A stretch of 42,381 nucleotides of DNA, from assembly GCA_021799535.1 (NCBI GenBank), contig JAJZAH010000006.1, positions 1-42,381 of the forward strand, read 5' to 3'. Origin of the DNA: Nanobdellota archaeon (GTDB lineage: Archaea; Nanobdellota; Nanobdellia; Pacearchaeales; GW2011-AR1). The position numbers were made by a program, and so were the translations under genes. The notes under the pieces were generated by a model. It had not been told where the DNA came from. It saw nothing but the letters and a program-made list of their open reading frames with translations, and did not search any database. The stretch's first letter is position 1. Every line of letters begins with the position of its first letter. Below are positions 5,025 through 23,812 of this stretch, piece by piece.

Positions 5025-5313
5025 TTTCATCGCAAAAATTCTTTTAAAGGACTTATTGCTTGGGGGAGCATGGCTAACCAAATAACTCAATTGAAACAAT
5101 GAGAAACTTGCGTTTGTATTATCAAAAAAGAATGAATTTTACAATTTTGCTTCAGTGAGATTTTGAGAAATATTTCCAAGAATCAATCATTTGAGGGTAA
5201 CCTGTGCTGCATAAAGTTCTGTATCAACAATAATCAAAAAAACCAAATCCGGACAGATTTTATAAATAACATTTATAAAGATTGAATGGTTTTCACATCC
5301 GTGGAAAGAGGAT

Positions 5314-6528: not shown

Positions 6529-7781
6529 TGGTATCGATCTGTTTCTACTTTCAGGTCCATCAGCCTTTTAGGATAAGAAAATACTCTATATTTGATATAG
6601 GAAAAAACGATAACTATTTTTCTGATAGTTCTGAGACGAACTTGAACAATGAAAAGATATTGAAAAAAGTGTCAGAGAAATGCTATCTCCCAATGAACTC
6701 CCTCCTCCTTGAACTCCTTGAGAAATATCCGCAGTTCAAAGTAAGTTTCTCTTTCTCCGGAGTTTACTTAGAGCAACTCGAAAAGTACGCCCCAGATGTG
6801 CTTGAATCATTCAAAAAGCTCGTCGATACAGGAAGGGTTGAGATACTTGCGGAAACATATTATCATTCACTTTCATTTCTTTTCTCAAGAGGAGAATTCT
6901 ACGAGCAGGTGAAAAAGCACAAGGAGATTGTAGAAAGGCTCTTTGGAAAAACACCGGAAGTTTTCAGGAATACGGAGCTTATATACAACAATGAACTTGC
7001 GAAAGTAGTTGAAAGGATGGGCTATAAGGGGATAATTTCAGAAGGGGCTCCGTCCATTCTGGGATGGAGATCGCCAAATTACTTATACTCACCTTCAGGA
7101 ACCGAAAAAATAAAAGTCCTCTTGAAAAATTACAAAATGAGTGATGACATTGCATTCAGGTTCTCGGAAAAAAGCTGGAAAGAATGGCCCCTTACTTCCC
7201 AAAAATACGCCCAGTGGGTTAATGCGGTAAACGGCGGAGGCGAGGTCATAAACCTTTTTATGGACTATGAAACTTTTGGAGAGCACCAATGGAAAGAGAC
7301 CGGGATATTCGAGTTCATGAGACACTTCCCTGAAGAGATCCTCAAAAGCTCGGACAATGATTTCAAAACCCCTTCGGAGGTTGTCAATTCTTATCCAGCA
7401 AGAGGGACCTTTGATTCCCCGAGATTCATCTCCTGGGCAGATGTGGAGAGAGATCTTTCCGCTTGGATAGGCAACGAGATACAAAATGCAGCTATAAAGA
7501 AGATATATTCTTTAGGCTTCAAGGTACTTAAGACTCAAGATTCGGATATAATAGAAAAATGGAGAAAACTCCAGACCTCAGACCACTTTTATTATATGTG
7601 CACTAAATGGTTTTCCGACGGAGATGTCCATAAATATTTCAATCCTTACCAGAGCCCTTATGATGCTTTTATCAGTTATATGAATGTCCTTCATGACCTT
7701 GAACTGCATGCAGATGAGCTATTAAAGAAAAGGACCCTCGTTGCCAGCAACACTCGTGAGAACATTTATAAAGAAAATTAG
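6528..7781 (+). CDS. Glycoside hydrolase family 57 (alpha-amylase/glucanotransferase-like)
   Basis: All five GH57 conserved regions are visible: VHQPFR (His11), GRVEILAETYYHS, VFRNTELIYNN with the probable nucleophile Glu150, MDYETFGEHQW with the probable acid/base Asp246, and TSDHFYYM. Length 417 aa places it with the short cytosolic GH57 alpha-amylase-like enzymes; there is no signal peptide. It would cleave or rearrange alpha-1,4-glucan made by the preceding glycosyltransferase, with which it overlaps by 1 nt (translational coupling). Whether it is a hydrolase, 4-alpha-glucanotransferase or debranching enzyme cannot be told; the branching-enzyme type is usually longer. Confidence 0.9.
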   Translation: MVSICFYFQVHQPFRIRKYSIFDIGKNDNYFSDSSETNLNNEKILKKVSEKCYLPMNSLLLELLEKYPQFKVSFSFSGVYLEQLEKYAPDVLESFKKLVDTGRVEILAETYYHSLSFLFSRGEFYEQVKKHKEIVERLFGKTPEVFRNTELIYNNELAKVVERMGYKGIISEGAPSILGWRSPNYLYSPSGTEKIKVLLKNYKMSDDIAFRFSEKSWKEWPLTSQKYAQWVNAVNGGGEVINLFMDYETFGEHQWKETGIFEFMRHFPEEILKSSDNDFKTPSEVVNSYPARGTFDSPRFISWADVERDLSAWIGNEIQNAAIKKIYSLGFKVLKTQDSDIIEKWRKLQTSDHFYYMCTKWFSDGDVHKYFNPYQSPYDAFISYMNVLHDLELHADELLKKRTLVASNTRENIYKEN

Positions 7782-7806
7782 TCACCCAATAACAGGGGTG
7801 AAACAA

Positions 7807-8124
7807 ATGGAAGAAATTAAAGATTCTTCACATTATTTTTATGCAAGAGATGGTAATATTCTGAAGAATATGGGAGATTTACTGACGTTTCTTGAAAATG
7901 CGGATGATGGAACTTTCTCACATCATTTTAATAAAGAAAAAAACGATTTTGCTAATTGGACGGACGGCACATTGAAAAACCATTCACTCGCGAGGAAAAT
8001 GTATTCGACAAAAACAAGGGAAGAAATGCATAATCTCGTCAAAAAAGAGATTGAAAAATCCCTGCATCCTACACCAAAGAAAAAATCTATAATTTCTGAG
8101 ATAAAAGAGGCGTTTTCAAGATGA
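7807..8124 (+). CDS. DUF5752-like protein, copy 1 (105 aa)
   Basis: Small acidic/basic protein with the pattern YFYARDG-N-LKNMGDLLTFLE...FSHHFN..KNDFANW...SLARKM, which resembles the DUF5752 domain (F..DG..i.sL.el...F..H....DF..Wi...lgd..La). ATG 7807 is chosen over an upstream TTG because GGGGTGA at 7795-7801 is a good ribosome site. It ends in a basic tail PKKKSIISEIKEAFSR similar to the tail of the ParA protein encoded next, whose ATG it overlaps by 4 nt. A paralogue lies just after the ParA gene. Function unknown; the position between GH57 and ParA suggests a glucan-linked adaptor (inference). Confidence 0.75.
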   Translation: MEEIKDSSHYFYARDGNILKNMGDLLTFLENADDGTFSHHFNKEKNDFANWTDGTLKNHSLARKMYSTKTREEMHNLVKKEIEKSLHPTPKKKSIISEIKEAFSR

Positions 8125-8900
8125 ACTCAAAAGTTTACGGTATAATAGCCCTTAAAGGAGGGGTTGGCAAGACCACAGTAGTTGAGAACCTGGGAGCAAC
8201 TCTTGTAAGAGATTTCCAGAAAAAAGTCCTGATTGTCGATGCAAACTTCTCGACGCCACACCTTGGGCTTCATGTCGGGATGATTAATCCGACACATACA
8301 CTCCATTCAGTTTTGAATGGGGAATATCCTATCTACGAAGCTATTTACCAGCATGATTTGGGCTTCCATATAATCCCTGGAAAACTATCGTCCCCCCCGA
8401 CAAATGTTAGGATTCTTAAAGAGAAAATAGATCCTTTAAGAGGGATCTATGATATAATCCTGATAGACTCATCTCCTTCACTTGACAAAGAGATGCTAGC
8501 GACAATGCTTGCTGCCGACGAACTTCTCGTAGTAAGCTCTCCGGATTATCCGACGTTGAGTTCAACCATCCATGCTGTGAACATTGCAAAAAGCGAGAAC
8601 GCTCCGATAAAAGGGATAATTCTAAACAAAGTCAGGAATAAAAGGTTCGAAATAAGCTCTAGGGACATTGCAAAAGCCTCAGAGGTAAAAGTCCTTGCGA
8701 GCCTCCCCGAGAATATAAAAGTGCTTTCGTCTCTCTCCGTCATGACCCCTGTGGTTGTAAAGTATCCATCACAAGACGTCTCAAAAATCTACAGGGACCT
8801 TGCATCTTCACTTTTAAATATTCCAAAAAAAAAGTCCAGGTTTTCAAAGATAAAAGATAGGTTAATGGATAAAGAAAAGGGGGTGGAAGAAGAGGGCTAG
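8121..8900 (+). CDS. ParA/MinD family ATPase
   Basis: P-loop ATPase of the ParA/MinD (SIMIBI) class, 259 aa. Deviant Walker A KGGVGKTT (12-19) with the signature lysine, switch I-like VDANFSTPHLGLH, Walker B-like DIILIDSSPS, and a late nucleotide-base segment KGIILNKVRN. The last 30 residues are highly charged (PKKKSRFSKIKDRLMDKEK), a possible amphipathic helix for membrane or partner binding. It overlaps the upstream DUF5752-like gene by 4 nt and is followed after 26 nt by a second one. No ParB gene or parS-like repeats are nearby, so chromosome partition is unlikely; positioning of a cellular cargo, possibly glucan particles, is an inference from operon context. Confidence 0.9.
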   Translation: MNSKVYGIIALKGGVGKTTVVENLGATLVRDFQKKVLIVDANFSTPHLGLHVGMINPTHTLHSVLNGEYPIYEAIYQHDLGFHIIPGKLSSPPTNVRILKEKIDPLRGIYDIILIDSSPSLDKEMLATMLAADELLVVSSPDYPTLSSTIHAVNIAKSENAPIKGIILNKVRNKRFEISSRDIAKASEVKVLASLPENIKVLSSLSVMTPVVVKYPSQDVSKIYRDLASSLLNIPKKKSRFSKIKDRLMDKEKGVEEEG

Positions 8901-8926
8901 AAATTAGAAGTTCAACCTGTTAAAAG

Positions 8927-9232
8927 ATGACTAAAGAAACAAGAGAAACTTTGTCTGCTTACCTAAGCGATGTCCCTGAAGACAGGAAATTTTGGTCTTC
9001 AGACGGGAAAATATTCAGAAACCTCTCGGACTTGGCAGATTCTTTCAAATCCATGAGCAAAAATACCTTCACATCACACGTGAATCAGGGTAAAAATGAC
9101 TTCGCAAAATGGATTTATGATGTCATAGGAGATGTAAAGCTTTCAGAGAGCTTAAGAGACACTACCGACATGAAGGAAACTGAAAAAAGGATTAAGGCAA
9201 GGATTGCTTCTATAAAAAAGGGAGCCCCTTAA
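8927..9232 (+). CDS. DUF5752-like protein, copy 2 (101 aa)
   Basis: Paralogue of the protein encoded before the ParA gene: FWSSDGKIFRNLSDLADSF, TFTSHVNQGKNDFAKWIYDVIGD and LSESLR align with YFYARDGNILKNMGDLLTF, TFSHHFNKEKNDFANW and LARKM. Shared core is about 70 residues; this copy has a longer N-terminus and lacks the PKKKS tail. Start ATG 8927 follows weak upstream signals. Six nt separate it from the GH15 gene. Function unknown; the family assignment (DUF5752) is from recalled pattern and should be confirmed by profile search. Confidence 0.75.
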   Translation: MTKETRETLSAYLSDVPEDRKFWSSDGKIFRNLSDLADSFKSMSKNTFTSHVNQGKNDFAKWIYDVIGDVKLSESLRDTTDMKETEKRIKARIASIKKGAP

Positions 9233-9238
9233 GTCTTT

Positions 9239-11203
9239 ATGACCAGACCAGTCATTTTGGGCAACGGCAATATGCTCGTTTGCCTCGATAAACATGCAAG
9301 AATACGTGATCTTTATTATCCGCATATAGGCCAGGAAAATCATGTGTCAAGCAGGACTCACAGGATCGGGGTTTGGGTCGGCGGGGAGTTTAGTTGGATT
9401 TCCGAGGAAGAGTGGGAATTGTCCCTGAAGTATAAGAAAGATACGCTTTCAAGCGACATAACTGCATATAGTAAGAAGCTAAAAGTGAGGATTTCCATGA
9501 ATGAAGCCGTTCACCACGACAAAAACATTTATTTAAGAAAAATCTGTATTGAAAACAGAGGCCAAATACAAAGAGATATCAAAGTTTTTTTTGGGCAGGA
9601 GTTCCAAATTTCTGAAACGAACATAGGAGACACCGCTTATTTTGACCCGCTGCTCCAGTCCATAGTCCACTATAAGGGAAGGAGATACTTTCTAATTGGC
9701 GGACAAATGGATGGGAAACCATTCAAAGATTATGCGACCGGTGTGAGCGGGACGGAGGATCATGTAGGAACGTATGTGGATGCCGAAGATGGGTTCCTGA
9801 GCAAAAATGCAATAGAACATGGATCGGTTGATTCTGTAATAGGATTCACGATGAATCTGAAAAAAGATGAATCAAAAAGGATAGATTATTGGATCATAGC
9901 AGGTAAAAACCATGGAGAAGTCGCGGAGCTTAAGAAATTTGTGCTAAAAAAAACTTCTGAGAAACTGATTGAAGAGACTGAAGATTTCTGGAAAGAATGG
10001 CTTGGAAAAAGCCCTATAAAATTCTATAATCTAAACGAAAAAATGAAAGACCTTTTCAAAAGATCCCTTTTGATAATCCATGCGCAGACTGACAAGAATG
10101 GCGCAATCATAGCTTCTAACGACACTCACACATTCAAGTTCAAGAAAGATACTTACAGTTACATGTGGCCAAGAGACGGCGCGCTTGTCGCTAGATCTTT
10201 TGATAAAGCAGGATATTTCGAGATAACTAAAAAGTTTTTCGATTTTTGCTCCGAAGTGCTGGAGAAAGAAGGATACTTGCTTCCAAAATACCGTCCTGAC
10301 GGGTCAGTTGGAAGTTCGTGGCATTCATGGCTTAGCTATGGGAAAGTGCAGCTTCCCATACAAGAAGATGAAACTGCACTCGTCTTGGATTCACTTTGGA
10401 AGCACTATACAAGATACAAATCGGGAAAGATGAAGGAAGCTTACGAGGTGTTCATAAAAGACGCGGGGGATTTTCTCGCAAATTTCAGGGATGAAAAAAT
10501 GAAGCTCCCGAAAGAAAGTTATGATTTGTGGGAAGAAAAATTAGGAGTTCATACATTTACATGCGCAACAGTATATGCCGGACTTGAAGCTGCAAAGAAC
10601 TTTGCGAGAATATTCGGAAACGAGCTTGATGAGGAGAAGTACTCAAAAGCTATGGAAGAAATAAAAAATGGGATACTGGAGTATTTATACGACCCTGAAG
10701 AAGGGCTTTTCATAAAAAGAATATATTATGATGAAAATGGCGAGATGGTAAAAGACAAAACTGTTGATATGAGCACTGTTTATGGCCTTTTCGAATACAA
10801 AGTCCTTGATCCAACTGATGAAAAAATAATAAAAACAATGGAAAAAACTGTGAAAAAACTTTGGTGCATAACCCCATGCGGAGGAATCTCAAGATATGAA
10901 AATGATAATTATTACAGAGTCTCAAGAGATGCCCCCCCAAATCCCTGGTTTATCTCCACGTTCTGGCTTGCGGAATATTACATTGCAAAAGCTAAAAAGA
11001 CAGAAGATCTCAAGCCGGCTGAGGACCTCTTGAACTGGGCAACACAAAGGGCGCTCCCCTCAGGGATATTATCAGAACAGCTTAACCCTTACACAGGAGA
11101 GCACCTGTCCGTATCCCCTCTCACATGGAGCCATGCAGGATTCATAATAGCAGTCATAAAATACGTCGACAAATATGAAAAACTCACCAGGCAATCAGGA
11201 TAA
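9239..11203 (+). CDS. GH15 glucoamylase / glucodextranase-like enzyme
   Basis: Exo-acting alpha-glucan hydrolase, 654 aa, with the archaeal/bacterial GH15 architecture: N-terminal beta-sandwich (about 1-265) and C-terminal (alpha/alpha)6 barrel (about 285-650). Barrel motifs include YMWPRDGA, SSWHSW, DLWEEKLGVHTFT holding the general acid (E432/E433) and GILSEQLNPYTGEH with the general base E613. There is no signal peptide, so it acts in the cytosol, releasing glucose from internal glucan. It is the last gene of the operon begun by the glycosyltransferase, 6 nt after the second DUF5752-like gene. A trehalase activity, known for some archaeal GH15 enzymes, is possible. Confidence 0.93.
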   Translation: MTRPVILGNGNMLVCLDKHARIRDLYYPHIGQENHVSSRTHRIGVWVGGEFSWISEEEWELSLKYKKDTLSSDITAYSKKLKVRISMNEAVHHDKNIYLRKICIENRGQIQRDIKVFFGQEFQISETNIGDTAYFDPLLQSIVHYKGRRYFLIGGQMDGKPFKDYATGVSGTEDHVGTYVDAEDGFLSKNAIEHGSVDSVIGFTMNLKKDESKRIDYWIIAGKNHGEVAELKKFVLKKTSEKLIEETEDFWKEWLGKSPIKFYNLNEKMKDLFKRSLLIIHAQTDKNGAIIASNDTHTFKFKKDTYSYMWPRDGALVARSFDKAGYFEITKKFFDFCSEVLEKEGYLLPKYRPDGSVGSSWHSWLSYGKVQLPIQEDETALVLDSLWKHYTRYKSGKMKEAYEVFIKDAGDFLANFRDEKMKLPKESYDLWEEKLGVHTFTCATVYAGLEAAKNFARIFGNELDEEKYSKAMEEIKNGILEYLYDPEEGLFIKRIYYDENGEMVKDKTVDMSTVYGLFEYKVLDPTDEKIIKTMEKTVKKLWCITPCGGISRYENDNYYRVSRDAPPNPWFISTFWLAEYYIAKAKKTEDLKPAEDLLNWATQRALPSGILSEQLNPYTGEHLSVSPLTWSHAGFIIAVIKYVDKYEKLTRQSG

Positions 11204-11479: not shown

Positions 11480-11779
11480 TTATATTTTATTCTTATATTC
11501 CCATGCTAAAACTGAGACGAGGATAAAATCCGCAAGCAAGATAAAAGTCTCGATAGGAACAAAGCCCATTTTTATTCCCGTAAGGCATTGATTATTATAC
11601 CACCAATGTCCCCGCGCTATCGCAAGATTGTCCCATATCAAGACGAGGATAAATCCGAAAACATAAGTGAACAGGAGGGCTTTCCATTTTTTAAAAATTC
11701 TCCCACCAAGGGCGAATCTATCCACCAAAAAAGCAATAATCAAAATCCCGAATGTAATAAACAGATATTCATATGCCAT
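11480..11779 (-). CDS. crtYd: Lycopene cyclase domain protein, CrtYd-like half
   Basis: 99-aa membrane protein with three predicted helices. The segment WDNLAIARGHWWYNNQCLTGIKMGFVPIETFILL matches the lycopene cyclase domain hallmark (WDxxAxxxGxWxYxxxxxxGIxxxxxPxEE), although the second Glu of PxEE is Thr here (PIET). In actinobacteria CrtYc and CrtYd form a heterodimeric beta-cyclase and in archaea and fungi the halves are often fused; here they remain separate. ATG 11779 is chosen; the reading frame extends to 11812. The start overlaps the CrtYc-like stop by 11 nt, suggesting coupled translation. Role: ring closure of lycopene in the membrane. Confidence 0.7.
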   Translation of the reverse strand: MAYEYLFITFGILIIAFLVDRFALGGRIFKKWKALLFTYVFGFILVLIWDNLAIARGHWWYNNQCLTGIKMGFVPIETFILLADFILVSVLAWEYKNKI

Positions 11780-12077
11780 AAAACACCTTCTTCCCAAGTT
11801 CCCAAAAAACAATGGAACCTATCGGGATAATGAACAGGATAAATAAAATTTCCTCTATCGGGAATATCCACACATAAGTGACCATTAATTTACTATTGAA
11901 TCCCCACCAACCGCTCAAAATTGCATAGATATCCGCGGGGGTGAAGATAATAGAACTTGCAAGAATAGCCAGAAAGATACGCCTTGGATTCTTGAAGATA
12001 TGAAGCTTAAATCTATAATTTACCAAAAGAGCGATTACAAAGACTATTATCTCGATTAAAAGATATTCCCCAATCAT
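11769..12077 (-). CDS. crtYc: Lycopene cyclase domain protein, CrtYc-like half
   Basis: 102-aa protein with three hydrophobic helices. It ends its core with WGFNSKLMVTYVWIFPIEEILFILFIIP, where FPIEEILF is the characteristic PxEE motif of the lycopene cyclase domain and ADIYAILSGWWGFN is the equivalent of DxxAxxxGxW. It is paralogous to the next gene on the same strand, as expected for the two halves of a CrtYc/CrtYd heterodimer. No phytoene synthase or desaturase is in the window, so the pathway must be encoded elsewhere or the domain serves another isoprenoid substrate. Confidence 0.72.
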   Translation of the reverse strand: MIGEYLLIEIIVFVIALLVNYRFKLHIFKNPRRIFLAILASSIIFTPADIYAILSGWWGFNSKLMVTYVWIFPIEEILFILFIIPIGSIVFWELGKKVFYGI

Positions 12078-13000: not shown

Positions 13001-13212
13001 AACTCCAAGTAAAAGATGCAAAAAGTGAAAATATAGAGCTCATAGTCTCCCTTTGGAATAGATTATGAAAATTACTCAGAAGTTACCGTCGGGTGAATAC
13101 AATATGTACATTATCAGGAATTTCAGAGGCAAAGGGATTGGGAATCTTCTTTTCGACAAATTTTAAAAACTTTGAAGCATTTTATAAAGTAAGAGGAAAT
13201 TCCAGAAAATGA
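12997..13212 (+). pseudogene. Decayed GNAT acetyltransferase
   Basis: Three short fragments in order look like pieces of one GNAT. Fragment 1 (12997-13068) reads MKLQVKDAKSENIELIVSLW, like a GNAT N-terminus. Fragment 2 (13065-13166, another frame) ends RNFRGKGIGNLLFDKF, a good acetyl-CoA loop. Fragment 3 (to the TGA at 13210-13212, back in the first frame) reads NFEAFYKVRG, like the C-terminal N..A..fYkk.GF helix. Only about 70 codons remain of about 145, with two frame changes, so an internal deletion and shifts have destroyed it. Both ends keep 4-nt ATGA overlaps with the neighbours, showing it once was part of the operon. Confidence 0.55.
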
Positions 13213-14711
13213 CTTTGGAATTAAGCATTTTATCTGAATATGTGAAGAAAGGAAGGCACAATAAACCTTTTTACAGCGAACTTTTTGGAGTTGTTTCTAA
13301 AGATAAACTTTTTATGAATACTTCACAAATTATACAGAGAAAATTATCCTTCACGGTGGCACCCTTTGAGGATGAAAAGACCGGAAAATCCGACTTAGCA
13401 GAGTTCATAGAAGAAAACTGGAAAGAATTCTACAAAACAAAAAAAGACGCGATTGAGGACTGGAACAAAATAAAGTCCAGGTGGATGAACAGCACTTTTA
13501 CCACAAGTGATGCAGTCATATTTCATCCCGATGGGAGTATTAAAATAATTCCAGATTATTTAACCAATAGACAGATCGCGCAAAAGCCCATTTCGGAGGA
13601 AGAATATTTCTCTCTCAAAGGGAAGGAACTGAAAAAGCACGAAATCGGAAAAATCAACGATTTTTTATCAGAAGATGAAGCTAGATCTAATCTTTTATGG
13701 AAGCTGCTTTCAAGAAATCAAAGTCTACTTGATAATTTCGTAGATTACGTTTTTTCAGATGGAAAAAAGGAATTCAGATACAATACTGCCATGGGGATTT
13801 TCCCGAAAATTGCAAAAGAGAACAGCTTGGAAATGAGATTGTGGCGCGTCAGAGGTGTTGGAAACAGATCAAGCCTCGACGCAATGGAAATTAATGATCC
13901 AAAAAACAATTTTGTCGGAGCAATTCCGGAAGTTATGAAATTCTATCTGAGACGGGATTTCAAAAACTTTGATGAGTTAAGGAAAAAAATTGAAACAACT
14001 GATAGAGATTACGGTGCGTCACCCTTAAAGCAATTTGCCCAAAAATATACCGGAATCGGTCTCGCACTTGCAATAGCTCTCCATCTCGTTGGAATCGGCG
14101 CTTTCTGGGGATTAAGATATTTCAGTCGTGAAGAAGAAAATAAAGCGCCTATTGTGATGCTTAAATACAGTGAGCTTGGACCTCCTCCTTCAATCACAAA
14201 TCAGCAGGCCATTCCTCAGATTGCCTTAAGCACACCAATGGCAAAACCTAACATAGGGATTCCGGTCCCAGTGCCCGACGCTCAAGTTTCGCCTGAGCAG
14301 ACAATTGCAACACAACAGGAACTAAGCAAGATTGCGGGTCCTGTGGTTCAAAGCACAGGTGGAAGTTCTATAGGAGTTTCTTTCAATCCTAACAGCCTCA
14401 AAGTTGAAGACAACACTCCCCCACCAGATTTCGTCCCGGTCGAAAAGGAACCGGCGGTAATAAAGAACGTGACACCAAAGTATCCTGAGCTCGCACAAAG
14501 AGCAGGCATAGAAGGTAGAGTGTGGGTCAAAGTCTGGGTCGACAAAACCGGAAAACCAAGAAAAGCTGTAATTCTCAAAAGTGATGCCGAAATATTTAAT
14601 CAGGCGGCTGAAGCAGCGGCAATGCAGGACCGCTTCACCCCCGCTATAATGAACAGGGGACCTGTAGACGTCTGGATAGTCATTCCATTCACTTTCAAGC
14701 TGCAGAAATGA
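13209..14711 (+). CDS. TonB-like energy transducer protein with novel N-terminal domain
   Basis: 500-aa protein. Residues 1-280 form a soluble domain I do not recognise. Residues 282-302 (GIGLALAIALHLVGIGAFWG) are one membrane helix with a central His, as in TonB anchors. Then EEENKAPIVMLKYSELGPPPSI and a Pro/Gln-rich linker (to about 420) lead to a complete TonB C-terminal domain (about 420-500) with PKYPELAQRAGIEGRVWVKVWVD and FTPAIMNRGPVDVWIVIPFTF. In bacteria TonB couples the inner-membrane proton gradient to outer-membrane transporters. No ExbB/ExbD is nearby. The linker and tail resemble Bacteroidota/Ignavibacteria homologues, so transfer is likely. A TATA-like TTTATAAAG at 13181-13189 fits a leaderless start. 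Confidence 0.85.
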   Translation: MTLELSILSEYVKKGRHNKPFYSELFGVVSKDKLFMNTSQIIQRKLSFTVAPFEDEKTGKSDLAEFIEENWKEFYKTKKDAIEDWNKIKSRWMNSTFTTSDAVIFHPDGSIKIIPDYLTNRQIAQKPISEEEYFSLKGKELKKHEIGKINDFLSEDEARSNLLWKLLSRNQSLLDNFVDYVFSDGKKEFRYNTAMGIFPKIAKENSLEMRLWRVRGVGNRSSLDAMEINDPKNNFVGAIPEVMKFYLRRDFKNFDELRKKIETTDRDYGASPLKQFAQKYTGIGLALAIALHLVGIGAFWGLRYFSREEENKAPIVMLKYSELGPPPSITNQQAIPQIALSTPMAKPNIGIPVPVPDAQVSPEQTIATQQELSKIAGPVVQSTGGSSIGVSFNPNSLKVEDNTPPPDFVPVEKEPAVIKNVTPKYPELAQRAGIEGRVWVKVWVDKTGKPRKAVILKSDAEIFNQAAEAAAMQDRFTPAIMNRGPVDVWIVIPFTFKLQK

Positions 14712-15566: not shown

Positions 15567-16256
15567 ATGGAGAAAAGTGAAATAGTTTATAGCATAACAA
15601 ACGCTGCTCCAAATTACAAGTGTACAAATGAGTCAATAGAAGCCATACTTTTGGGAATGGATGTAAAACCAGAAGACAATATTCTCTGTATAATGGGGTC
15701 CGGACAACAGGGGCTTGCTATGGCAGGAGAAGGGGCAAACGTGACACTTATAGAAAGAAGCAAATCACAAGCAGACTATTTTTCAAGACTGTTCTCTTTT
15801 CTCTCGGACGAAAAAAATCAAAATGAGTTGTGCAGGGACATTTTAGTGGAAATAAGCCGGGCGTACAAATCCCCAAAATCATACTTCTCCGACCTGAAGA
15901 AGATTGCAGATATAAGAAAAAACCTGTTTCGTATAAATAATCCCGGACAGACAGATATGTTCGAGGCAAAGAAAGGCATTTCAGGGTACAATAAAGTCTA
16001 TCTGTCAAATGCATTAACAATAGGGGAGATGTATTATCCGAGATCTCTCAGTGTCTTCAAGGATTTTGGCGGAAGATTCAAGGAAGGAACATTGTTTTAC
16101 GCCACAAGAAGGTTCACGGAGTCAGATGACGAAATAAAACCGCCGTTTTATATAGAAAAAACGCTTACTGAAATAGCACGGGAACTTGAAAGAAGCAGCT
16201 GGGATCCAAGAGTAATAATAAAAAACGAAAATTACAAGACTGTGGGAAGCTTATGA
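15567..16256 (+). CDS. Rossmann-fold, probably SAM-binding protein (BtaA/DUF3419-like)
   Basis: 229-aa protein with a methyltransferase-type core: VKPEDNILCIMGSGQQGLAMAGEGANVTLIERSKSQADYF gives the beta1-G-loop-beta2 acid pattern (G.G...L......V..IE.S), and YNKVYLSNALTIG plus FKEGTLFYATRR resemble the later strands. The general style (SGxxxL...a..V..iD.s..q...) reminds me of DUF3419/BtaA amino-carboxypropyl transferases, but identity is uncertain; DNA or lipid methyltransfer are alternatives. TTTATATAAA at 15540-15550 lies about 20 nt before the ATG, suggesting a leaderless mRNA. It is 47 nt upstream of the tandem-domain gene array on the same strand. Confidence 0.6.
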   Translation: MEKSEIVYSITNAAPNYKCTNESIEAILLGMDVKPEDNILCIMGSGQQGLAMAGEGANVTLIERSKSQADYFSRLFSFLSDEKNQNELCRDILVEISRAYKSPKSYFSDLKKIADIRKNLFRINNPGQTDMFEAKKGISGYNKVYLSNALTIGEMYYPRSLSVFKDFGGRFKEGTLFYATRRFTESDDEIKPPFYIEKTLTEIARELERSSWDPRVIIKNENYKTVGSL

Positions 16257-16303: not shown

Positions 16304-16918
16304 ATGCCAACCGAAGAGAAGAGAGTTGATTCCCAGATACATTTTGAATTCGGCCCTGCTGAGCTTCACGAACTCAGCACACAGATAAAAAAGAGCATCA
16401 AAAGCGGAAAAATTCTCGACCTTCTTGACTTGACTCATAAAAACCTATTCTCAAAACCCATAGGTGAAAAGTATATTAATTATTTCCTTGATGTCTATCT
16501 GGAGAGAATGGCTCCTGACATTGAAAAAAATCTAAGAGTTTCAGAAGCCATTTATTACACTATAAGGCAGATGAACGAGGACTATATGAGAAAAGCCTTT
16601 GATTTCAGAAGCTCTCCGAAGTTCAGATTCAGACCGGAAAAGAAAAAGTCAAATTCCCTTGCTGATAAAGCGAAAGAGAGTGTTGAGAACCACACGATGC
16701 TCGAATTTTTAGACTCCTTTCACAAAGAATTATTTTTTGAGGATCTGAACGAAAGGTACAAAGATTACTTAATCGAAAGATATTCATTCCACAGAAAAGC
16801 CGGCAATGATGACCTGCATTCAAAAGAGGACTCTCTTGTAGATACTGCAAGGAAAATGAACGAGGACTATAAAGAGAAAAGCGGATCGAAGAAAGATCCA
16901 AAAAGAGGCTCCGTATGA
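16304..16918 (+). CDS. Tandem-array helical protein A, two units (204 aa)
   Basis: First gene of an array of paralogues. It contains two copies of a roughly 95-residue all-helical unit: unit 1 with LLDLTHKNLFSKPIGEKYIN, then IRQMNEDYMRKA; unit 2 with FLDSFHKELFFEDLNERYKD, then ARKMNEDYKEKS. The shared pattern is FLDxxHxxLFxxPLxxxYxxY followed 30-40 residues later by TxxKMNEDYxxK. No signal peptide, membrane helix or known catalytic motif. Highly charged, likely cytosolic. GGTGA at 16286-16290 precedes ATG 16304. It overlaps gene B by 4 nt. I know no matching family. Confidence 0.8.
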   Translation: MPTEEKRVDSQIHFEFGPAELHELSTQIKKSIKSGKILDLLDLTHKNLFSKPIGEKYINYFLDVYLERMAPDIEKNLRVSEAIYYTIRQMNEDYMRKAFDFRSSPKFRFRPEKKKSNSLADKAKESVENHTMLEFLDSFHKELFFEDLNERYKDYLIERYSFHRKAGNDDLHSKEDSLVDTARKMNEDYKEKSGSKKDPKRGSV

Positions 16919-17280
16919 ATCCGAACAGTACAAGAGCTATCCCTGAATGGGTTGAAATCAGGGCAAAAATTCCTGAGATATGGATGAGCACATGCAAAGG
17001 GACAGAAATTGATTATTTAAACAAATCTCATATGCGGTTATTTAAGGAGAATTTGCGTGAGGAATATTCAGATCTGCTTTTTGACCAATACAATTCTTAT
17101 ATTGATTTTTATAAGACAGAAAAGCCTTCAGAATCCGGAGAAATACTTGAAAGAATGGCAAAATCAAGAGCTATGTGGGATGTCCAAAAAAAGATGTACT
17201 GGGATTATAATGAAAAAGCACAACTGGACGCCGAGCTCTCAAGAGTCTATAATATAAACAGTGAAGAAAATGAGCCTTGA
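16915..17280 (+). CDS. Tandem-array helical protein B (121 aa)
   Basis: One array unit: IPEIWMS..., DYLNKSHMRLFKENLREEYS, LLFDQYNSYIDFYK, then DVQKKMYWDYNEKA. Compared with unit C it shares DQYNSYxxFYKT nearly exactly, so B and C are recent relatives. Its ATG overlaps the stop of gene A (ATGA). Acidic, helical, no export signal. Function unknown. Confidence 0.78.
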   Translation: MNPNSTRAIPEWVEIRAKIPEIWMSTCKGTEIDYLNKSHMRLFKENLREEYSDLLFDQYNSYIDFYKTEKPSESGEILERMAKSRAMWDVQKKMYWDYNEKAQLDAELSRVYNINSEENEP

Positions 17281-17605
17281 AAAAACCGTCCCGGGAATAA
17301 TGAAAGAAGACGAAGAACTCCTTAGCGGAGTTCCTGAAATCTGGGAAATAATAAAATATCACGACGAAACCAGCTCGCTTGAAAAGACCCATTTTGAACT
17401 TTTCTCCAAGCCACTTGATGAAGAACATTTGGATTATTTTCTTGATCAGTACAATTCCTACAGAAGGTTCTATAAAACGCTATATGAATCAGAAGATAAG
17501 ATTGAGAAACTCTCAAAATGCAGAGCAATAATAAACACCCAAGGGCTTATGTACCGAGAATTAATCGAAAAATCTGAGATTGCAGCGGGATTGGAAGAGC
17601 ATTAG
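17270..17605 (+). CDS. Tandem-array helical protein C (111 aa)
   Basis: One array unit: VPEIWEIIKYHDETSSLEKTH, FELFSKPLDEEHLDYFLDQY, NSYRRFYKT, then INTQGLMYRELIEKS. ATG 17270 is preferred: GTGA at 17261-17264 is a suitable ribosome site and the start overlaps gene B by 11 nt; GTG 17261 would add three residues. Closest to gene B by the DQYNSY segment. No known domain. Confidence 0.75.
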   Translation: MSLEKTVPGIMKEDEELLSGVPEIWEIIKYHDETSSLEKTHFELFSKPLDEEHLDYFLDQYNSYRRFYKTLYESEDKIEKLSKCRAIINTQGLMYRELIEKSEIAAGLEEH

Positions 17606-17622
17606 CAACTGGCAAGATAAAA

Positions 17623-17967
17623 ATGGGATTAGAAGAAAAATCGAAAAAAGAAGTTGTCCTCGCAAGGGATTATGAGGAAGAGATTTATGGAAACGTGGCC
17701 CCTAAAGAATGGGCTGCGATAAAAAACCATTCAGAGATCAATTTCCTTGATTATGTGCATATGGACTCGTTAGGAAAACCCCTAAGCCAGAATTACATTG
17801 ATTACATGCTCGATAAGTATAATCTCTACAGATCATCCGGGGAAAGCGTGAACTTCTCAAAATGCATGGCTCTTCTTAATACAGAGACAAAGATTTATGA
17901 TGACGCTTCTTTAATGCTATCAGAAAACTTGGAAAAATTAAAAAGAGATTTGAACGATGGGTCTTGA
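17623..17967 (+). CDS. Tandem-array helical protein D (114 aa)
   Basis: One array unit: APKEWAAIKNHSEINFLDYV, HMDSLGKPLSQNYIDYMLDK, YNLYR, then LLNTETKIYDDASLM. It begins MGLEEKS, almost the same as gene E (MGLEEST), which suggests that D and E arose by a local duplication. It starts 17 nt after gene C and overlaps gene E by 11 nt. No known domain. Confidence 0.75.
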   Translation: MGLEEKSKKEVVLARDYEEEIYGNVAPKEWAAIKNHSEINFLDYVHMDSLGKPLSQNYIDYMLDKYNLYRSSGESVNFSKCMALLNTETKIYDDASLMLSENLEKLKRDLNDGS

Positions 17968-18307
17968 GGAAAGCACATCAGAAGAGGACGCTGAATGGGG
18001 AATCCTCCTGAGCGATGCCTGGAAAAGCGTTGAACTCGATGACGAAGCCAATTTCCTCGACCATGTGCATGAGATATGGTTCGGGAGTCCGCTAAGAGAT
18101 AAATATATGAAATATTTCAAAAACCGCTCTTATTATTATATGAGAAAAAAGCCAAAGAAGATAATAAAATTAATCCCGGAGAAGGATAAAAATAAAATAG
18201 CGCGGCTCAACTCCCTTGTTGATACATTAAAAAAGATGGATGAAGATTTCGGGAAGGCAAGCGAATATTACAACACGCTTTATGAAGCTAAAAAAATCAA
18301 ATCATGA
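17957..18307 (+). CDS. Tandem-array helical protein E (116 aa)
   Basis: One array unit: LSDAWKSVELDDEANFLDHV, HEIWFGSPLRDKYMKYFKNR, then LVDTLKKMDEDFGKASEYYN. Longer, Lys-rich connector (KKPKKIIKLIPEKDKNK) between the two conserved parts. Starts with MGLEE like gene D and overlaps it by 11 nt. The TxKMDED part keeps the acidic pair best seen in genes A and F. No known domain. Confidence 0.75.
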   Translation: MGLEESTSEEDAEWGILLSDAWKSVELDDEANFLDHVHEIWFGSPLRDKYMKYFKNRSYYYMRKKPKKIIKLIPEKDKNKIARLNSLVDTLKKMDEDFGKASEYYNTLYEAKKIKS

Positions 18308-18352
18308 CTTCTGCACCGAAACAAATAAAAACCCGAAAACCGGGGAAGGCTT

Positions 18353-18667
18353 ATGGACACAGAAAATGCCGGAGATTTTTTTAAGAAAAACACAAAAAGA
18401 CTCGAAGATTTAAGGGAGACCTCCCTAAAGATGGTTTTAGACGGAAAAGAAGCCGATTTCATGGAAAAATATTCTCAGACACTTTTCCCGGGACCACTTA
18501 GCGACTCTTACAAATCCCATTTTCAGAGGAATCTTGAGAAATATATTTCAGAGGGAAACAGCAACAGACTGTCAAGATGGTATGCTGTATTAGTCACATT
18601 GGCTAAAATGAACGAAGATGCGACAATCTCATATTTAATCAGATCGGATGTAAAAGCACGCAGGTAA
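18353..18667 (+). CDS. Tandem-array helical protein F (104 aa)
   Basis: Last and most divergent unit: DFMEKYSQTLFPGPLSDSYK, SHFQRNLEKY, then LVTLAKMNEDATISYLI. The otherwise common His of the FLDxxH segment is replaced (KYSQT), while the GPLSDSY and KMNED parts are kept. It ends 4 nt before the stop of the convergent barrel-like gene. No export signal and no known domain. Confidence 0.72.
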   Translation: MDTENAGDFFKKNTKRLEDLRETSLKMVLDGKEADFMEKYSQTLFPGPLSDSYKSHFQRNLEKYISEGNSNRLSRWYAVLVTLAKMNEDATISYLIRSDVKARR

Positions 18668-18671
18668 AGAA

Positions 18672-19742
18672 CTATTCAAAAAACACACCGATTCTTGCTT
18701 CTTTTGTCTGGAAGTCATAAGTCACTATCCCAAATTTGTACTTAAAACCAATTTTCTCGCTGCCTTTCGAATAATGGAAAAGAATATTGTTAAAGTTTAT
18801 ATTGAAATCCACATTGTCCTGACTCAATGAAAAGTTATAGTCTTTTGTGAAGAACATGTCTTTTATGTAACTTCTCGACGTCTCAAGGTTCGAGTCATAT
18901 ATCCTTGGAACAGCCCGGAGCTTGTTCTCAAGGTTCATTTCAAAATCTTCCCTGTTCAGCTTGGAGTAATCTGAAGTTGCGAACGCGACCCTCAATTCCC
19001 TGTCATAACTGACGTCGACATCGACCTTATCAAATAGGTTGAAGCTCAAAAAGCCCGAAAAATTTTTCCCATAATAAATATTAAAACCATCATAATCTGC
19101 TTTTACAAGACAGTTATTGGATTTGTTCCCGTTCTGCTCGTTTTGTATGAATTTTACATATCCGTATTTGAACCCTGCGCCGTAAATGGTCGTCCTATTT
19201 TCAAGGTTGAGGGTAAATGAACTTAGGCTCTCGTTTCCCCCGACGTCGACTAAAGTTGTCCCGTCGATCTTGTCATTCTCATACGCTTTTTCAGCACTAA
19301 CGAAAAAATCCCCGTATTTTAGCTTAACACCAGACTCATTCGACCTGCCCTCGTTCAATATGTCCGTATGCGTGACAATCGTTCCCAACGGAGACTCCTG
19401 ACTGCTTTCGGTTTGGGTTTTCACGTTTTGCCTTGATTCGTTGTGGTATCCACTGACAAATTTAAGGTCTAAATCTCCGCCGTAATAGTAGTTAAGAAGG
19501 CCATTCCTTATGAAATAGACTGAGCTGTTATCATATTTCAGCTTTGCCATCCCGCGTATGTTGGTGAGCTCTTTCAGACCAAAAGTATCACTTACAGCAA
19601 GATCGAAATATTTGCTCTTAAGGTCAAGATCGTTTAAGTTTGACTCCAGCTTGAACTGAGCTTTTGCGCTCGCAGGATTCAGAAAAAAGAAAAATGGCAA
19701 AGCATAAACCAAATCCCTTAACTTCGAATTTTTCAGTTTCAT
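18672..19742 (-). CDS. Exported beta-strand-rich protein, beta-barrel-like
   Basis: 356-aa protein with a signal peptide ending SAKAQ (about 1-29). The mature part is made of repeated alternating polar/hydrophobic stretches rich in Tyr, Phe and Asn with tight turns (KLKYGDFFVSAEKAYE, GAGFKYGYVKFIQ, IGFKYKFGIVTYDF) and ends RIGVFFE, much like a bacterial outer-membrane barrel with its terminal aromatic strand. That is unexpected in an archaeon; a soluble beta-sandwich or beta-helix is an alternative. It is the last gene of a minus-strand operon after the protein with a T9SS-type tail, 29 nt away, and shares the KAQ-type signal peptide with it. Function unknown. Confidence 0.7.
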   Translation of the reverse strand: MKLKNSKLRDLVYALPFFFFLNPASAKAQFKLESNLNDLDLKSKYFDLAVSDTFGLKELTNIRGMAKLKYDNSSVYFIRNGLLNYYYGGDLDLKFVSGYHNESRQNVKTQTESSQESPLGTIVTHTDILNEGRSNESGVKLKYGDFFVSAEKAYENDKIDGTTLVDVGGNESLSSFTLNLENRTTIYGAGFKYGYVKFIQNEQNGNKSNNCLVKADYDGFNIYYGKNFSGFLSFNLFDKVDVDVSYDRELRVAFATSDYSKLNREDFEMNLENKLRAVPRIYDSNLETSRSYIKDMFFTKDYNFSLSQDNVDFNINFNNILFHYSKGSEKIGFKYKFGIVTYDFQTKEARIGVFFE

Positions 19743-19771
19743 TATCTTTTCTCCTTCAAAAAATGGGAATT

Positions 19772-20470
19772 TTACTTGAGAATCATGAACTTTTTTACGT
19801 CCTCTAATTTTCCGCCATCCGAGGACATCCTAAGAAAATAAATGCCGCTTGAAAGGTCCTCCAAATTGATATTTTCAGTTTTTTCACCCGGACTGCCCTC
19901 AAAAGAATAAACTTCTCTGCCCAGCACGTCGTAAATCTTGAAATTCGGATGGCTCGGCCCCCCTGAATTGTATTTGATATTTATCGCCCCGTTTGTTGGA
20001 TTTGGATATATTCCTTCAAGCTTTGACTCAAGGCTCGCCCGTAGCTTCTCGACAACTCCGTCAGGAGTCCCCTTAAGTATCTTTTTTATGGAATCTGCAT
20101 AGACTGACGGCAGAATATTATTGTCATCCATTATGAATCCAACACCCCCGAAGCCGTTCACATAATTAACCTCTGAAGTTGTCTCGGAATCCCTCTTGTT
20201 GAATATAACTGAGACAGGGTATCCCATAAGGCTGTCATTATATTGCTTTTGAGCGACAAGGGGGCAGTTTATAAGCTCAGAATTCCCATTATAGTCTATC
20301 TGAAGCTCTAAAGAATCGCCAATCATATAACCCTTTAGGTTAAATCCCATGTTTTCAAGATCCTTTGCCACTTCAACTGTCTTCAAAGAATCATAAACCT
20401 GAGCTTTTGCAGGACTGGATAAAAGAGTAAGTCCAAAAGCCGCCGCCAGTAAAGTCTTTGCGAGTTTCAT
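19772..20470 (-). CDS. Secreted protein with type IX secretion (Por) C-terminal domain
   Basis: 232 aa: signal peptide (about 1-23, cleavage after AKA), an unrecognised region (24-150), then a canonical T9SS type A sorting domain: IYPNPTNGAINIKYN, FKIYDVLGREVYSF, INLEDLSSGIYFLRM and final KFMILK. In Bacteroidota this tail directs export across the outer membrane and attachment to the surface. No T9SS component is visible in the window and archaea are not known to have one, so either the gene came by transfer or the domain acts as a plain beta-sandwich. One nt separates its ATG from the stop of the preceding surface-protein gene, so it is truly embedded in the archaeal operon. Confidence 0.85.
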   Translation of the reverse strand: MKLAKTLLAAAFGLTLLSSPAKAQVYDSLKTVEVAKDLENMGFNLKGYMIGDSLELQIDYNGNSELINCPLVAQKQYNDSLMGYPVSVIFNKRDSETTSEVNYVNGFGGVGFIMDDNNILPSVYADSIKKILKGTPDGVVEKLRASLESKLEGIYPNPTNGAINIKYNSGGPSHPNFKIYDVLGREVYSFEGSPGEKTENINLEDLSSGIYFLRMSSDGGKLEDVKKFMILK

Positions 20471-20471
20471 T

Positions 20472-21977
20472 TTAATTTATACTTATATCCCCAAAATATT
20501 TTATATTATCATTTTTGTTATCTTCATATATTTTCCCTTCCGGGTCGATTATAAGCTCAGGATCGTAAGTCCCGGGATTTGCGTATTTATGGGAAGTCAT
20601 GACGTTCCTTGAGCCTCCCGCCGAAACATTATTCAGGGGGTATTCAGACGAACTCCCATCACCCCAGTTTATTTTGTAATTGAAGGAGTTCGCTTTATCG
20701 TCATCATTATGCACTGTAAAGCTTGGATATATCGTTTTCCCGACGTTGTAATCATAGAGATTATCCGCATAAAGGTTGGCGTTTGGATTTATTACATCAA
20801 GAGTGAAGTTCTGATAAGAAAAAGCCATCCTTGAGTCACCGACGAAATAAAGATGGTAAGCCATAAGAGATATATTGTACATCCCCGAAGTTGAAGGCGT
20901 CCAGCTTACAAGACCAGTCTTTGGATCTATAATCATCCCTTCAGGAGCTTTTGAAAGCCCATACATGATAAACCCAGTGTTATAATTGGTTATTGATTTT
21001 GTGTCTACTGCCATCTGGTAAGTCCAAGCATTATTGACATCAAATTGCGTTGAAGGAGTCGAAGTTATAATAGGATGCCACGGACCGTTTATTACATTGA
21101 ACCCCTGAGTCATGAAACCGAAGCTTTTTTCATCGTTGTTTACCGTGTAAGACAAGTTGATTTTAAGCCTATATGCCCCGTTAAGTATCCAGTTAGGGAC
21201 CGGAACAGGCGCAGTTGAATTGCCGCCACTCTGGCATACGAATTCACTACCAGAGACATCGAACTTCTGACCCGCATATTCTCCAATAGCATTCCCAACG
21301 CATATTTCAGAACTTTCATTTGTGGATGTGACCTTCACCCAGCCGTTGGGCTTCAACGTCAGGTTGACAGAGACTCCATACATAGGATTTCCCCACCATC
21401 CGAGCTGGTGAAGAGTTGAATTATCAACAATTATAAACGCATCGTTGCTGCTGTGCCAAACGACATTGCTTGCCCCAACATTTGTCACCTGAACGACTTG
21501 GCTCATATATTCTCCCGGAACATAATTGATGCTTTTATCCAGGCTGTTCATCCTGATTGAAACGTCCCCGTTGGTCTCATAATAAAGGTACCATTGGTCA
21601 GAAGGGATCTTATCAAGAGTAACTTGAATGGACTTTCCGGAATTGGTGAAGAAGTTGCCAGTTGAAGGGCTATACGAAGTTTTATAGACAGAGTAAACGA
21701 AGATTTCATTTGTGTTAAGGGATATCGAAGCCTGACCGTTCGCATCTGTAAGCAGGTTCTTACTGAAAGTCTGATCAGAAATGCCCTGTACAACTATAAG
21801 CGCATTCCCGATGGGATTTCCGCTTGAGTCATTGACCTGAAAATTCACGTTGGCCGTTCCTTCAACAGATAAGGGATTTACAGCCCTTTTATATGGCAAA
21901 GTCACATAGTGGACATTAGCACTCACGAGAGGAAACGCAACTAAAAGGAATAGAAAAGAGGCTAGTAAAAGCTTCAT
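20472..21977 (-). CDS. Secreted multi-domain surface protein with Ig-like and PKD/CARDB-like domains
   Basis: 501 aa with a signal peptide (1-20, LVSA). Domains in order: a carboxypeptidase-regulatory/Ig-like repeat (about 45-125, VNFQVNDSSGNPIGNALIVV, TDANGQASISL), a central region with many N-glycosylation-like NxS/T sites, a putative Ig domain with GMIIDPKTGLVSWTPSTSG (about 350-385), and a C-terminal CARDB/PKD-like domain (about 405-495, INWGDGSSSEY...HKYANPGTYD). No C-terminal anchor is seen. Likely an extracellular adhesion or envelope component that works with the anchored protein encoded upstream, whose stop overlaps its ATG by 4 nt. Confidence 0.8.
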   Translation of the reverse strand: MKLLLASFLFLLVAFPLVSANVHYVTLPYKRAVNPLSVEGTANVNFQVNDSSGNPIGNALIVVQGISDQTFSKNLLTDANGQASISLNTNEIFVYSVYKTSYSPSTGNFFTNSGKSIQVTLDKIPSDQWYLYYETNGDVSIRMNSLDKSINYVPGEYMSQVVQVTNVGASNVVWHSSNDAFIIVDNSTLHQLGWWGNPMYGVSVNLTLKPNGWVKVTSTNESSEICVGNAIGEYAGQKFDVSGSEFVCQSGGNSTAPVPVPNWILNGAYRLKINLSYTVNNDEKSFGFMTQGFNVINGPWHPIITSTPSTQFDVNNAWTYQMAVDTKSITNYNTGFIMYGLSKAPEGMIIDPKTGLVSWTPSTSGMYNISLMAYHLYFVGDSRMAFSYQNFTLDVINPNANLYADNLYDYNVGKTIYPSFTVHNDDDKANSFNYKINWGDGSSSEYPLNNVSAGGSRNVMTSHKYANPGTYDPELIIDPEGKIYEDNKNDNIKYFGDISIN

Positions 21978-23812
21978 GCTTCGCCAAGCCTATCACCTGA
22001 GTTTAGTTCTTTTACAACAACTCTTCTCCCAGTTCCTCTCTTCCTGATAACAATGATTATTCCAAGAGTGATTATCCCTATGGCAAGCACAAGAGTCACG
22101 GCTATCCCTCCAGGAGATGAAAGCGCACCTATGACAGCACCAGTTATTCCGGAGTTGCCGGATGGCTGTGAAGGATTATTGTTGCCTCCGAGATTTATAG
22201 GCTCACCTGTCTGATTCGTATAGTTTATGGGATTCGTGAATATAGGAGGTATTACTGTGTTGTTGTATAGCTGTGATTCCTGAATTCCTCCGCCTCCTCC
22301 GCCACCGCCGTTATTGTTCGAAGGAGCAGCTTCTTCCGCTATCATGAAAAGTGAAAAATGAGGGGTGTTTGCGGAATAATTGTTTCCTCCCAACCAAGTG
22401 GTATTTAGTTCGTCCCATTTGGCAGTTGATTCATTATAGACATACATATGAACATAACCCGGATTCGTGGCATTTACAGTGAAGAAAAATGTTCCGTTAG
22501 ATTCTGTCCCATTAAGGATAGATATGTTCAGGAATTTGTAAACTTTTTGTAATCCGGAGGGCGTTGGAATATTTATCGTGTCAAACGCAACTATCTTCAT
22601 TTGCTTTATGCTTCCATTCATCCCTTTTATCCCTTTGAGGATGTAGCTTATCTCCGGGAGCGTTGGAATATATTCTGTCCCATTATTAATGGTACTACCG
22701 GATTCGACATTCGTCAATCCTTCAAGGCGAAGATTTATCGTCTTTGTCAGGTTATTACCTTGGGGGTCTCTTATGAAGACCGCAACAGTGTAATTTCCAT
22801 CCCTCAAACTGACATTGTTAAGATCAATGGCGCCAATAGTATAATTAAGATTAATATTATCAAGGAAACTTAAATTCGCACCAATACTTGGGATGATTTT
22901 ATCAGCAACATCTTTTATATTTACAGAAACCAAACTTTGGTTTATTAGATTTCTTATTTGATTTAAATAACTATTTGAAACGTTTCCGTATCCATTATCA
23001 TCCCACAAAGTGTAATCATTCCCTGACTTGGTGAAGATTATGTGACTTGGCGAATTAATCTCGGATGAATGAGATTTTATGTAATTATTCAAAACAGAGG
23101 GATTATTATTTACTTCATCTGCAGTAAAAGGGATATAATTGCCCGCTGAAGCGGCATTAATCAAAAAGTACATGGAAGTCACATCAATGCTCTTAGTCAT
23201 ATTAAAAGAATTAAACAAAGGATACCCCCATCCTTTTTTCATCTCTACCTGACCGTCAAAACTACTGAGAAAATTCGCTATAGATCCCTGAATTTTTACA
23301 GGCTGAGTTATATTAAGAGTGTCTAATGATGTCCCGTTGAGATTCATGTAAAAATCCACTTGCGAGGAGTTCTCAGTTACAGTAAGATTTAACCTAGTAA
23401 CATTATCATCAAAAAATTCTCCAATCTTGCTCCATACAGGGATTCGGTAGATTCCAAAAGGTTCAACTAAATGAGACACATTAATACTTTCGGGAGCAGT
23501 AAAGCGATAATGAGCAGTGCTTCTATCATTGCTTAAGCTTATCAAAGTGAACCCTTTAGAAGAAAAGTTCAGACTAGGGAGATCAGTCCCAAAAATCCAG
23601 ATATCATAAGTCCCACCAACAATAGTGTAATTATTAAGCAAAGGGCAAAGAGAAGTTCCAACCTGAGTATAATCAGGACAATTAGGGCTAATTATCAAAC
23701 CATAACTTACATTTGTGCTCGCGCTCACAACTCCTGAATTAAGAACAAAAAATAATCCAATGGCAACTAAAAGAATCACCCCGTAACGCAGGTTATGCTG
23801 TCTGGTACCCAT
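21974..23812 (-). CDS. Membrane-anchored surface glycoprotein with PGF-pre-PGF-like domain
   Basis: 612 aa: signal peptide (about 1-32), a long region with dozens of NxS/T sequons, a PGF-pre-PGF-like domain (about 365-495) ending VHMYVYNESTAKWDELNTTW and TPHFSLFMIAEE, a polyglycine hinge, a Thr/Asn/Pro spacer, then GITGAVIG, one membrane helix (about 565-590) and a basic cytoplasmic tail RKRGTGRR. The TGAVIG segment before the anchor is a feature I associate with DPANN cell-surface proteins. First gene of the four-gene minus-strand operon. Its upstream region faces the metal-regulator promoter, with about 110 nt between the ATG and the operator. Confidence 0.82.
   Translation of the reverse strand: MGTRQHNLRYGVILLVAIGLFFVLNSGVVSASTNVSYGLIISPNCPDYTQVGTSLCPLLNNYTIVGGTYDIWIFGTDLPSLNFSSKGFTLISLSNDRSTAHYRFTAPESINVSHLVEPFGIYRIPVWSKIGEFFDDNVTRLNLTVTENSSQVDFYMNLNGTSLDTLNITQPVKIQGSIANFLSSFDGQVEMKKGWGYPLFNSFNMTKSIDVTSMYFLINAASAGNYIPFTADEVNNNPSVLNNYIKSHSSEINSPSHIIFTKSGNDYTLWDDNGYGNVSNSYLNQIRNLINQSLVSVNIKDVADKIIPSIGANLSFLDNINLNYTIGAIDLNNVSLRDGNYTVAVFIRDPQGNNLTKTINLRLEGLTNVESGSTINNGTEYIPTLPEISYILKGIKGMNGSIKQMKIVAFDTINIPTPSGLQKVYKFLNISILNGTESNGTFFFTVNATNPGYVHMYVYNESTAKWDELNTTWLGGNNYSANTPHFSLFMIAEEAAPSNNNGGGGGGGGIQESQLYNNTVIPPIFTNPINYTNQTGEPINLGGNNNPSQPSGNSGITGAVIGALSSPGGIAVTLVLAIGIITLGIIIVIRKRGTGRRVVVKELNSGDRLGEA

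Follow-up and report, generated by a model that had tools for sequence, protein, structure and literature searches.

What would a very small archaeal genome gain from seven units of one domain placed side by side? The source genome, of the DPANN type in size and gene content (747 kb, 87% complete, 8 contigs), carries on the stretch of DNA analysed here (42,381 nt, hereafter the window) six small plus-strand genes, A–F, between 16304 and 18667. That a genome of 0.75 Mb devotes one operon to seven units of an otherwise unmatched domain suggests a lineage-specific function that repays the expense. Lineage-specific tandem expansions of paralogues are common.

Layout of the array

All six ORFs proposed in the first-pass annotation are present, and the count of seven units in six adjacent genes was borne out, gene A containing two units and genes B–F one apiece (Table 1). 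No additional unit copies were found in the 747 kb of the source genome. The genes had been described as joined by ATGA or 11-nt overlaps; this applies to A/B (4 nt), B/C, and D/E (11 nt each), whereas C/D and E/F are separated by gaps of 17 and 45 nt. The overlaps and short gaps, read from the sequence coordinates, support operon-like packing of A–F. The mechanical ORF of gene C begins upstream of the ATG at 17270, at GTG 17261.

Table 1 Features of the array, its direct neighbours, and its relatives in other genomes.
Feature	Position	Strand	Description	Counterpart in genome G002
Upstream co-directional gene	15567..16256	+	229 aa; no convincing family match; not counted in array	
Gene A	16304..16918	+	204 aa; two units with disordered linker between (ORF and AF2 model)	L020:8164-8775, 47% identical
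Unit A1 helices	about 16355-16612	+	aa 18-103 of gene A (AF2 model)	
Unit A2 helices	about 16658-16885	+	aa 119-194 of gene A (AF2 model)	
Gene B	16915..17280	+	121 aa; one unit; ATGA overlap with A	L020:7787-8167, 37% identical
Gene C	17270..17605	+	111 aa from ATG 17270; one unit; 11-nt overlap with B	L020:7450-7797, 57%; B/C overlap also 11 nt
Gene D	17623..17967	+	114 aa; one unit; unit D of the structure model	L020:7125-7448 (likely orthologue), 33%
Gene E	17957..18307	+	116 aa; one unit; 11-nt overlap with D	L020:6794-7141 (likely orthologue), 25%
Gene F	18353..18667	+	104 aa; one unit; most diverged; conserved His absent	none
Convergent neighbour	18672..19742	-	356 aa; signal-peptide-like start; 4 nt from F; conserved downstream edge of array	
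Remote relative (G128)	C19:4305-4577		90 aa	
Remote relative (G129)	L086:6567-7058		163 aa	

Common descent and predicted fold of the units

We scored each unit against a profile HMM built from the other six units. The leave-one-out scores ranged from 41.3 bits (F) to 70.3 bits (C), while the best scores among 2000 composition-preserving shuffles per unit were 8.9–16.1 bits; for unit F, 41 bits compare with at most 8.9 for its shuffles. A profile made from the two other array genomes only, with the orthologue removed, gave 47.6–70.4 bits for the window units. Homology among all seven units exceeds chance, and the profile comparison, which had been named as the possible refutation of the family, upheld it.

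An AF2 model of unit D, built with the 16 known units, was all-helical (mean pLDDT 87.8, pTM 0.74), with helices at residues 5-25, 27-34, 38-50, 56-71, and 76-112. In the model of gene A (pLDDT 85 overall), each unit comprises four helices, mostly with pLDDT of about 90 or more; the linker at aa 107-115 is disordered (pLDDT below 50), and the two units show no confident mutual packing (pTM 0.47). These models confidently predict a compact helical bundle, in agreement with the helical domain postulated initially.

The 16 units were also compared for residue conservation. The units do contain the blocks FLDxxHxxLFxxPLxxxYxxY and, later, TxxKMxED reported before, but in a degenerate form rather than as one exact motif. 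They map to a helix (FLDxxHxxLF), to the PL cap that precedes the following helix and its Tyr ladder, and to the final helix, SKxxAxxxTxxKMxxD. His, Phe, and Met are each conserved in 15 of the 16 units, Thr and Asp in 13, and Lys in 10–11. The His, the sole near-invariant polar residue, is replaced by Ser in gene F and in the remote relatives described below. Identity between paralogues is roughly 0.37 in the core and 0.22 on the surface, the core being set by hydrophobicity in the same alignment. Since that residue is itself lost from gene F as well as from the remote relatives, the pattern would fit a binding module or a structural role better than an enzyme.

D and E were correctly noted to share the N-terminus MGLEE at the protein level. 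Its codons differ between D and E (ATGGGATTAGAA / ATGGGTCTTGAG), so this is not a recent copy; an old shared or a selected N-terminus would fit. MxLE also stands at the start of C in the window and of B and C in G002. All A–F products are hydrophilic overall, and none of the ORFs, read by eye, has an evident signal peptide at its start or an evident membrane segment, which weakens the antigen-like reading of the first-pass annotation.

Searches of known families and structures

Searches of Pfam, NCBIfam, PHROGs, and PADLOC gave no convincing match, only scattered sub-threshold ones, each to a single unit. We counted a family as matched when the score reached the curated cut-off or when the match was consistent across units, and the array units showed neither. 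The best of the sub-threshold matches, that of B to the CrAss tail-ring family CrAss_Ring_2 (E=0.0019), was rejected because it involved one unit only and scored 18.3 bits against a cut-off of 27, and a PADLOC match of E to Csm6 (E=0.0047, 14.6 bits) was likewise confined to one unit and rejected. The sequence search of the PDB returned nothing significant; its best match was a short stretch of TRIM25 (E=0.005), and the TRIM25 matches were rejected as chance helical similarity. Foldseek comparison of the models found no match in the PDB at E<=0.001, and the best match among viral models (BFVD) had E 0.69. Weak Foldseek statistics are typical of small helical bundles, so that, from comparison with the PDB and BFVD, a novel fold is a candidate. 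The earlier statement that no known domain fits agrees with all of these sequence searches. We regard the domain family as real; it has a narrow distribution and no description in the libraries used.

Relatives beyond the genus

We extended the scan to 200 genomes of the order and to samples from the class (378 genomes) and the phylum (371 genomes). Convincing relatives occurred in just one further genus, as single genes in G128 and G129. Unlike the array, each of these stands alone among unrelated neighbours. The G128 protein aligned with a probability of 92% in hhalign (E 7e-7 for that pair). Used as a query, it retrieved G129 (5e-9) and, at 0.003 and 0.018, two G001 units, which provides modest reciprocal support. 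G129 matches in the class and phylum scans arise by construction, as G129 was already in the profile. A second unit in the G129 protein was not supported. Among the 200 genomes, marginal matches in G055, G178, G162, and others (E 5e-4 to 0.04) were rejected as chance similarities or interrupted frames; most of these were judged by table rows only, and G128 and G129 alone survived the reciprocal check. Scans of phage, plasmid, and IMG/VR sequences gave no convincing relative. Near the G129 relative, the stretch L086 682-5740 contains AAA-ATPase-like and vWA-like genes, and the gene between the two is partly repeated (2262-3134 and 5112-5740, the copy containing an N run).

Distribution and evolution within the genus

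The array is present in three of the 11 genomes of the genus, namely the source genome, G002, and G001, and was not seen in the other eight, all of which are incomplete. In G002 (record DAHWKL010000001.1, 'archaeon isolate clean1337'), the array comprises A (two units)-B-C-D-E, that is, six units in the order of the window, and retains the 4-nt A/B and 11-nt B/C overlaps. Its last unit gene ends 4 nt from the same convergent gene, matching the position of F in the window, and the synteny extends to further genes. The copy number has thus changed between genomes (seven units in the window and six in G002), as had been anticipated. One idea is that the last gene of G002 is a fusion of E and F, in keeping with both arrays ending 4 nt from the convergent gene; its N-terminal half resembles E (score 76), and its C-terminal half resembles nothing clearly. 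In G001, three units are located elsewhere, between a glucoamylase-like gene and tRNA-Asp, and do not correspond one-to-one with A–F in the unit tree. G004 has the downstream cluster, including the convergent gene, without the array; the next gene there is of the ATP-cone/Mrr type. In all three array genomes, the array consists of this gene type only, and the upstream neighbours differ. A contig scan with a two-sequence profile of gene C returned only the known G002 contig.

Identity between the window and G002 was 62% for A1, 57% for C, 40% for A2, 37% for B, 33% for D, and 25% for E, compared with 55–64% for the direct neighbours of the array and 83–87% for a regulator and a transporter further out. 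Because array members are mostly less identical than their neighbours, most of them change faster than their surroundings. A1 and C change slowly and A2, B, D, and E faster; F has no orthologue for comparison. On the surface, 54% of residues are retained between the species in A1 and C, and 24–27% in D and E. In the unit tree, A1, B, and C form orthologous pairs at 99–100% support; only these are firm, and the deeper order lacks firm support. The duplications of A1, B, and C therefore predate the split of the two species. Tandem duplication, suggested earlier as a stepwise local process, is supported and, for A1, B, and C, is ancient.

Genes around the array

The four consecutive secreted/surface-type genes at 18672-23812 (-) are conserved in G002 (55–64%); in G004, three are at 52–53% and one is at 26%. 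They may form an envelope cluster with the protein at 19772-20470 (-), which, although archaeal, carries a sorting domain of the Bacteroidota type, Por_Secre_tail (PF18962, E=3e-17). Homologues of this protein in two other genomes of the genus (L020:4978-5676 and L069:6924-7628) make contamination unlikely. A 500-aa protein at 13209-14711 (+) has a TonB_C domain (PF03544, E=2.5e-18), also in an archaeon; its homologue in G002 (L020:12222-12875) is not as long, and the match between the two covers only 199 aa (32%). The region 5314-11203 (+) contains glycosyltransferase (glycogen-synthase-like), GH57-like, MinD-like, and glucoamylase-like genes, interspersed with two weak DUF5752-like genes, and this gene set is conserved in G001 (52–80%). 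A protein with a Lycopene_cyc domain (PF18916, E=2e-9) is encoded at 11480-11812 (-) of this small-genome archaeon.

Possible roles of the array

We tentatively favour, as a possible reading, a transcription unit that encodes nothing but soluble helical modules for binding rather than catalysis, whose roles have long been separate and which probably co-assemble. The A–F products would be cytosolic, non-enzymatic, protein-binding modules; co-expressed, they would act together, most likely as subunits of a hetero-oligomer of mixed composition, where each paralogue may keep a fixed role and the divergent members may contact a changing partner. Order and member identity were kept while the sequences diverged, which suggests members with fixed, separate roles. 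The one-to-one order A1-A2-B-C-D-E in the second species, although the syntenic neighbours are only 55–64% identical, argues for such an assembly, as do the restriction of all three arrays to one gene type with differing upstream neighbours, the overlaps retained in G002, the concentration of conservation in the hydrophobic core, the contrast in surface retention between A1 and C and the pair D and E, and the compact bundle of the AF2 model. Against it stand the two units of gene A, which do not pack confidently in the model, and the eight incomplete genomes of the genus in which the array was not seen. Since the three units of G001 are not one-to-one with A–F, a fixed composition is not general. 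The broader proposal, that the units belong to a new family of helical domains and that its tandem paralogues form a novel mixed assembly or recognition panel in one ultra-small archaeal genus, possibly facing host or neighbour proteins, is in our estimate unlikely.

Ranked behind the co-acting binding modules, and rather doubtful, is that the array is orphan cargo of a genomic island or of an old virus or mobile element, retained by accident or because it serves a task of the element itself. Such islands and elements often carry orphan families, and the array is patchy, with three of 11 genomes carrying it. The G001 units (neighbourhood L021 1-1016) adjoin tRNA-Asp (870-943) and an ORF that resembles a tyrosine recombinase by eye, with no Pfam match, and a tRNA-Asp lies 5 kb from the array in the window. 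However, orthologous arrays occupy one syntenic place in two species, the IMG/VR, phage, and plasmid scans yielded no convincing relative, and the 3' end of tRNA-Asp is not repeated in the window. The same 3'-end probe found no match in G001 and missed even its own tRNA-Asp, so it is uninformative there.

Third in rank, and unlikely, is an immunity- or antitoxin-like role, in which every protein of the panel would neutralise its own attack protein, sent by neighbouring cells or mobile elements, as with the tandem immunity genes of bacteria. The patchy presence, the fast surface change of B, D, and E, and the position outside known families are what such a panel would show, and immunity clusters such as esaG, tsaI, and tipC typically form rows of small, non-identical paralogues that vary in copy number (PMC9484751). 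On the other hand, the one-to-one order was maintained over a long time, no toxin or secretion gene was recognised among the neighbours read beside the three loci (the G001 contig being short), and PADLOC gave no convincing match. Moreover, the paralogues share no long DNA blocks, only stretches of 28, 23, and 17 nt at 78–88%. Shared blocks are not strictly defining for immunity clusters: the genes of esaG and tipC strings have recombining DNA blocks in common, and tsaI shows little of this (PMC9484751).

A domain that binds a small molecule or metal, or is weakly enzymatic, through the His and the Thr and Asp of the last helix appears improbable. The conservation of these residues and of Lys is consistent with it, but F lacks the His, both remote relatives have Ser there, no second conserved pattern of metal-ligand residues is present, and no structural match to an enzyme was found.

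Finally, the units could be substrates or partners of the upstream gene, which is co-directional at a distance of 47 nt and had been taken as a Rossmann/SAM-type gene that may modify them or their target; this is very improbable, as the gene is found in neither G001 nor G002, the other two array genomes, but occurs in the array-less G003, G004, G005, G007, and G008 and in further genera. Given this distribution, a functional bond between the gene and the array is unlikely. No convincing family, Rossmann or other, was found for it in Pfam, NCBIfam, PHROGs, or PADLOC.

Comparison with known systems

With the esaG, tsaI, and tipC clusters of type VII secretion (PMC9484751), the array shares tandem, small, non-identical paralogues and copy-number change. 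It differs from them in that no toxin or secretion gene was recognised beside it, long blocks of homology are lacking, and the one-to-one orthology is old; the domain, itself unmatched, is set apart from EsaG, TsaI, and TipC by family libraries only. Archaeal KEOPS is a hetero-oligomeric complex with the paralogous small subunits Pcc1 and Pcc2 (PMC9889334). We liken it to the array by role only, claiming no relation in sequence or fold, and use it as a working analogy for small archaeal paralogues with separate, long-kept roles.
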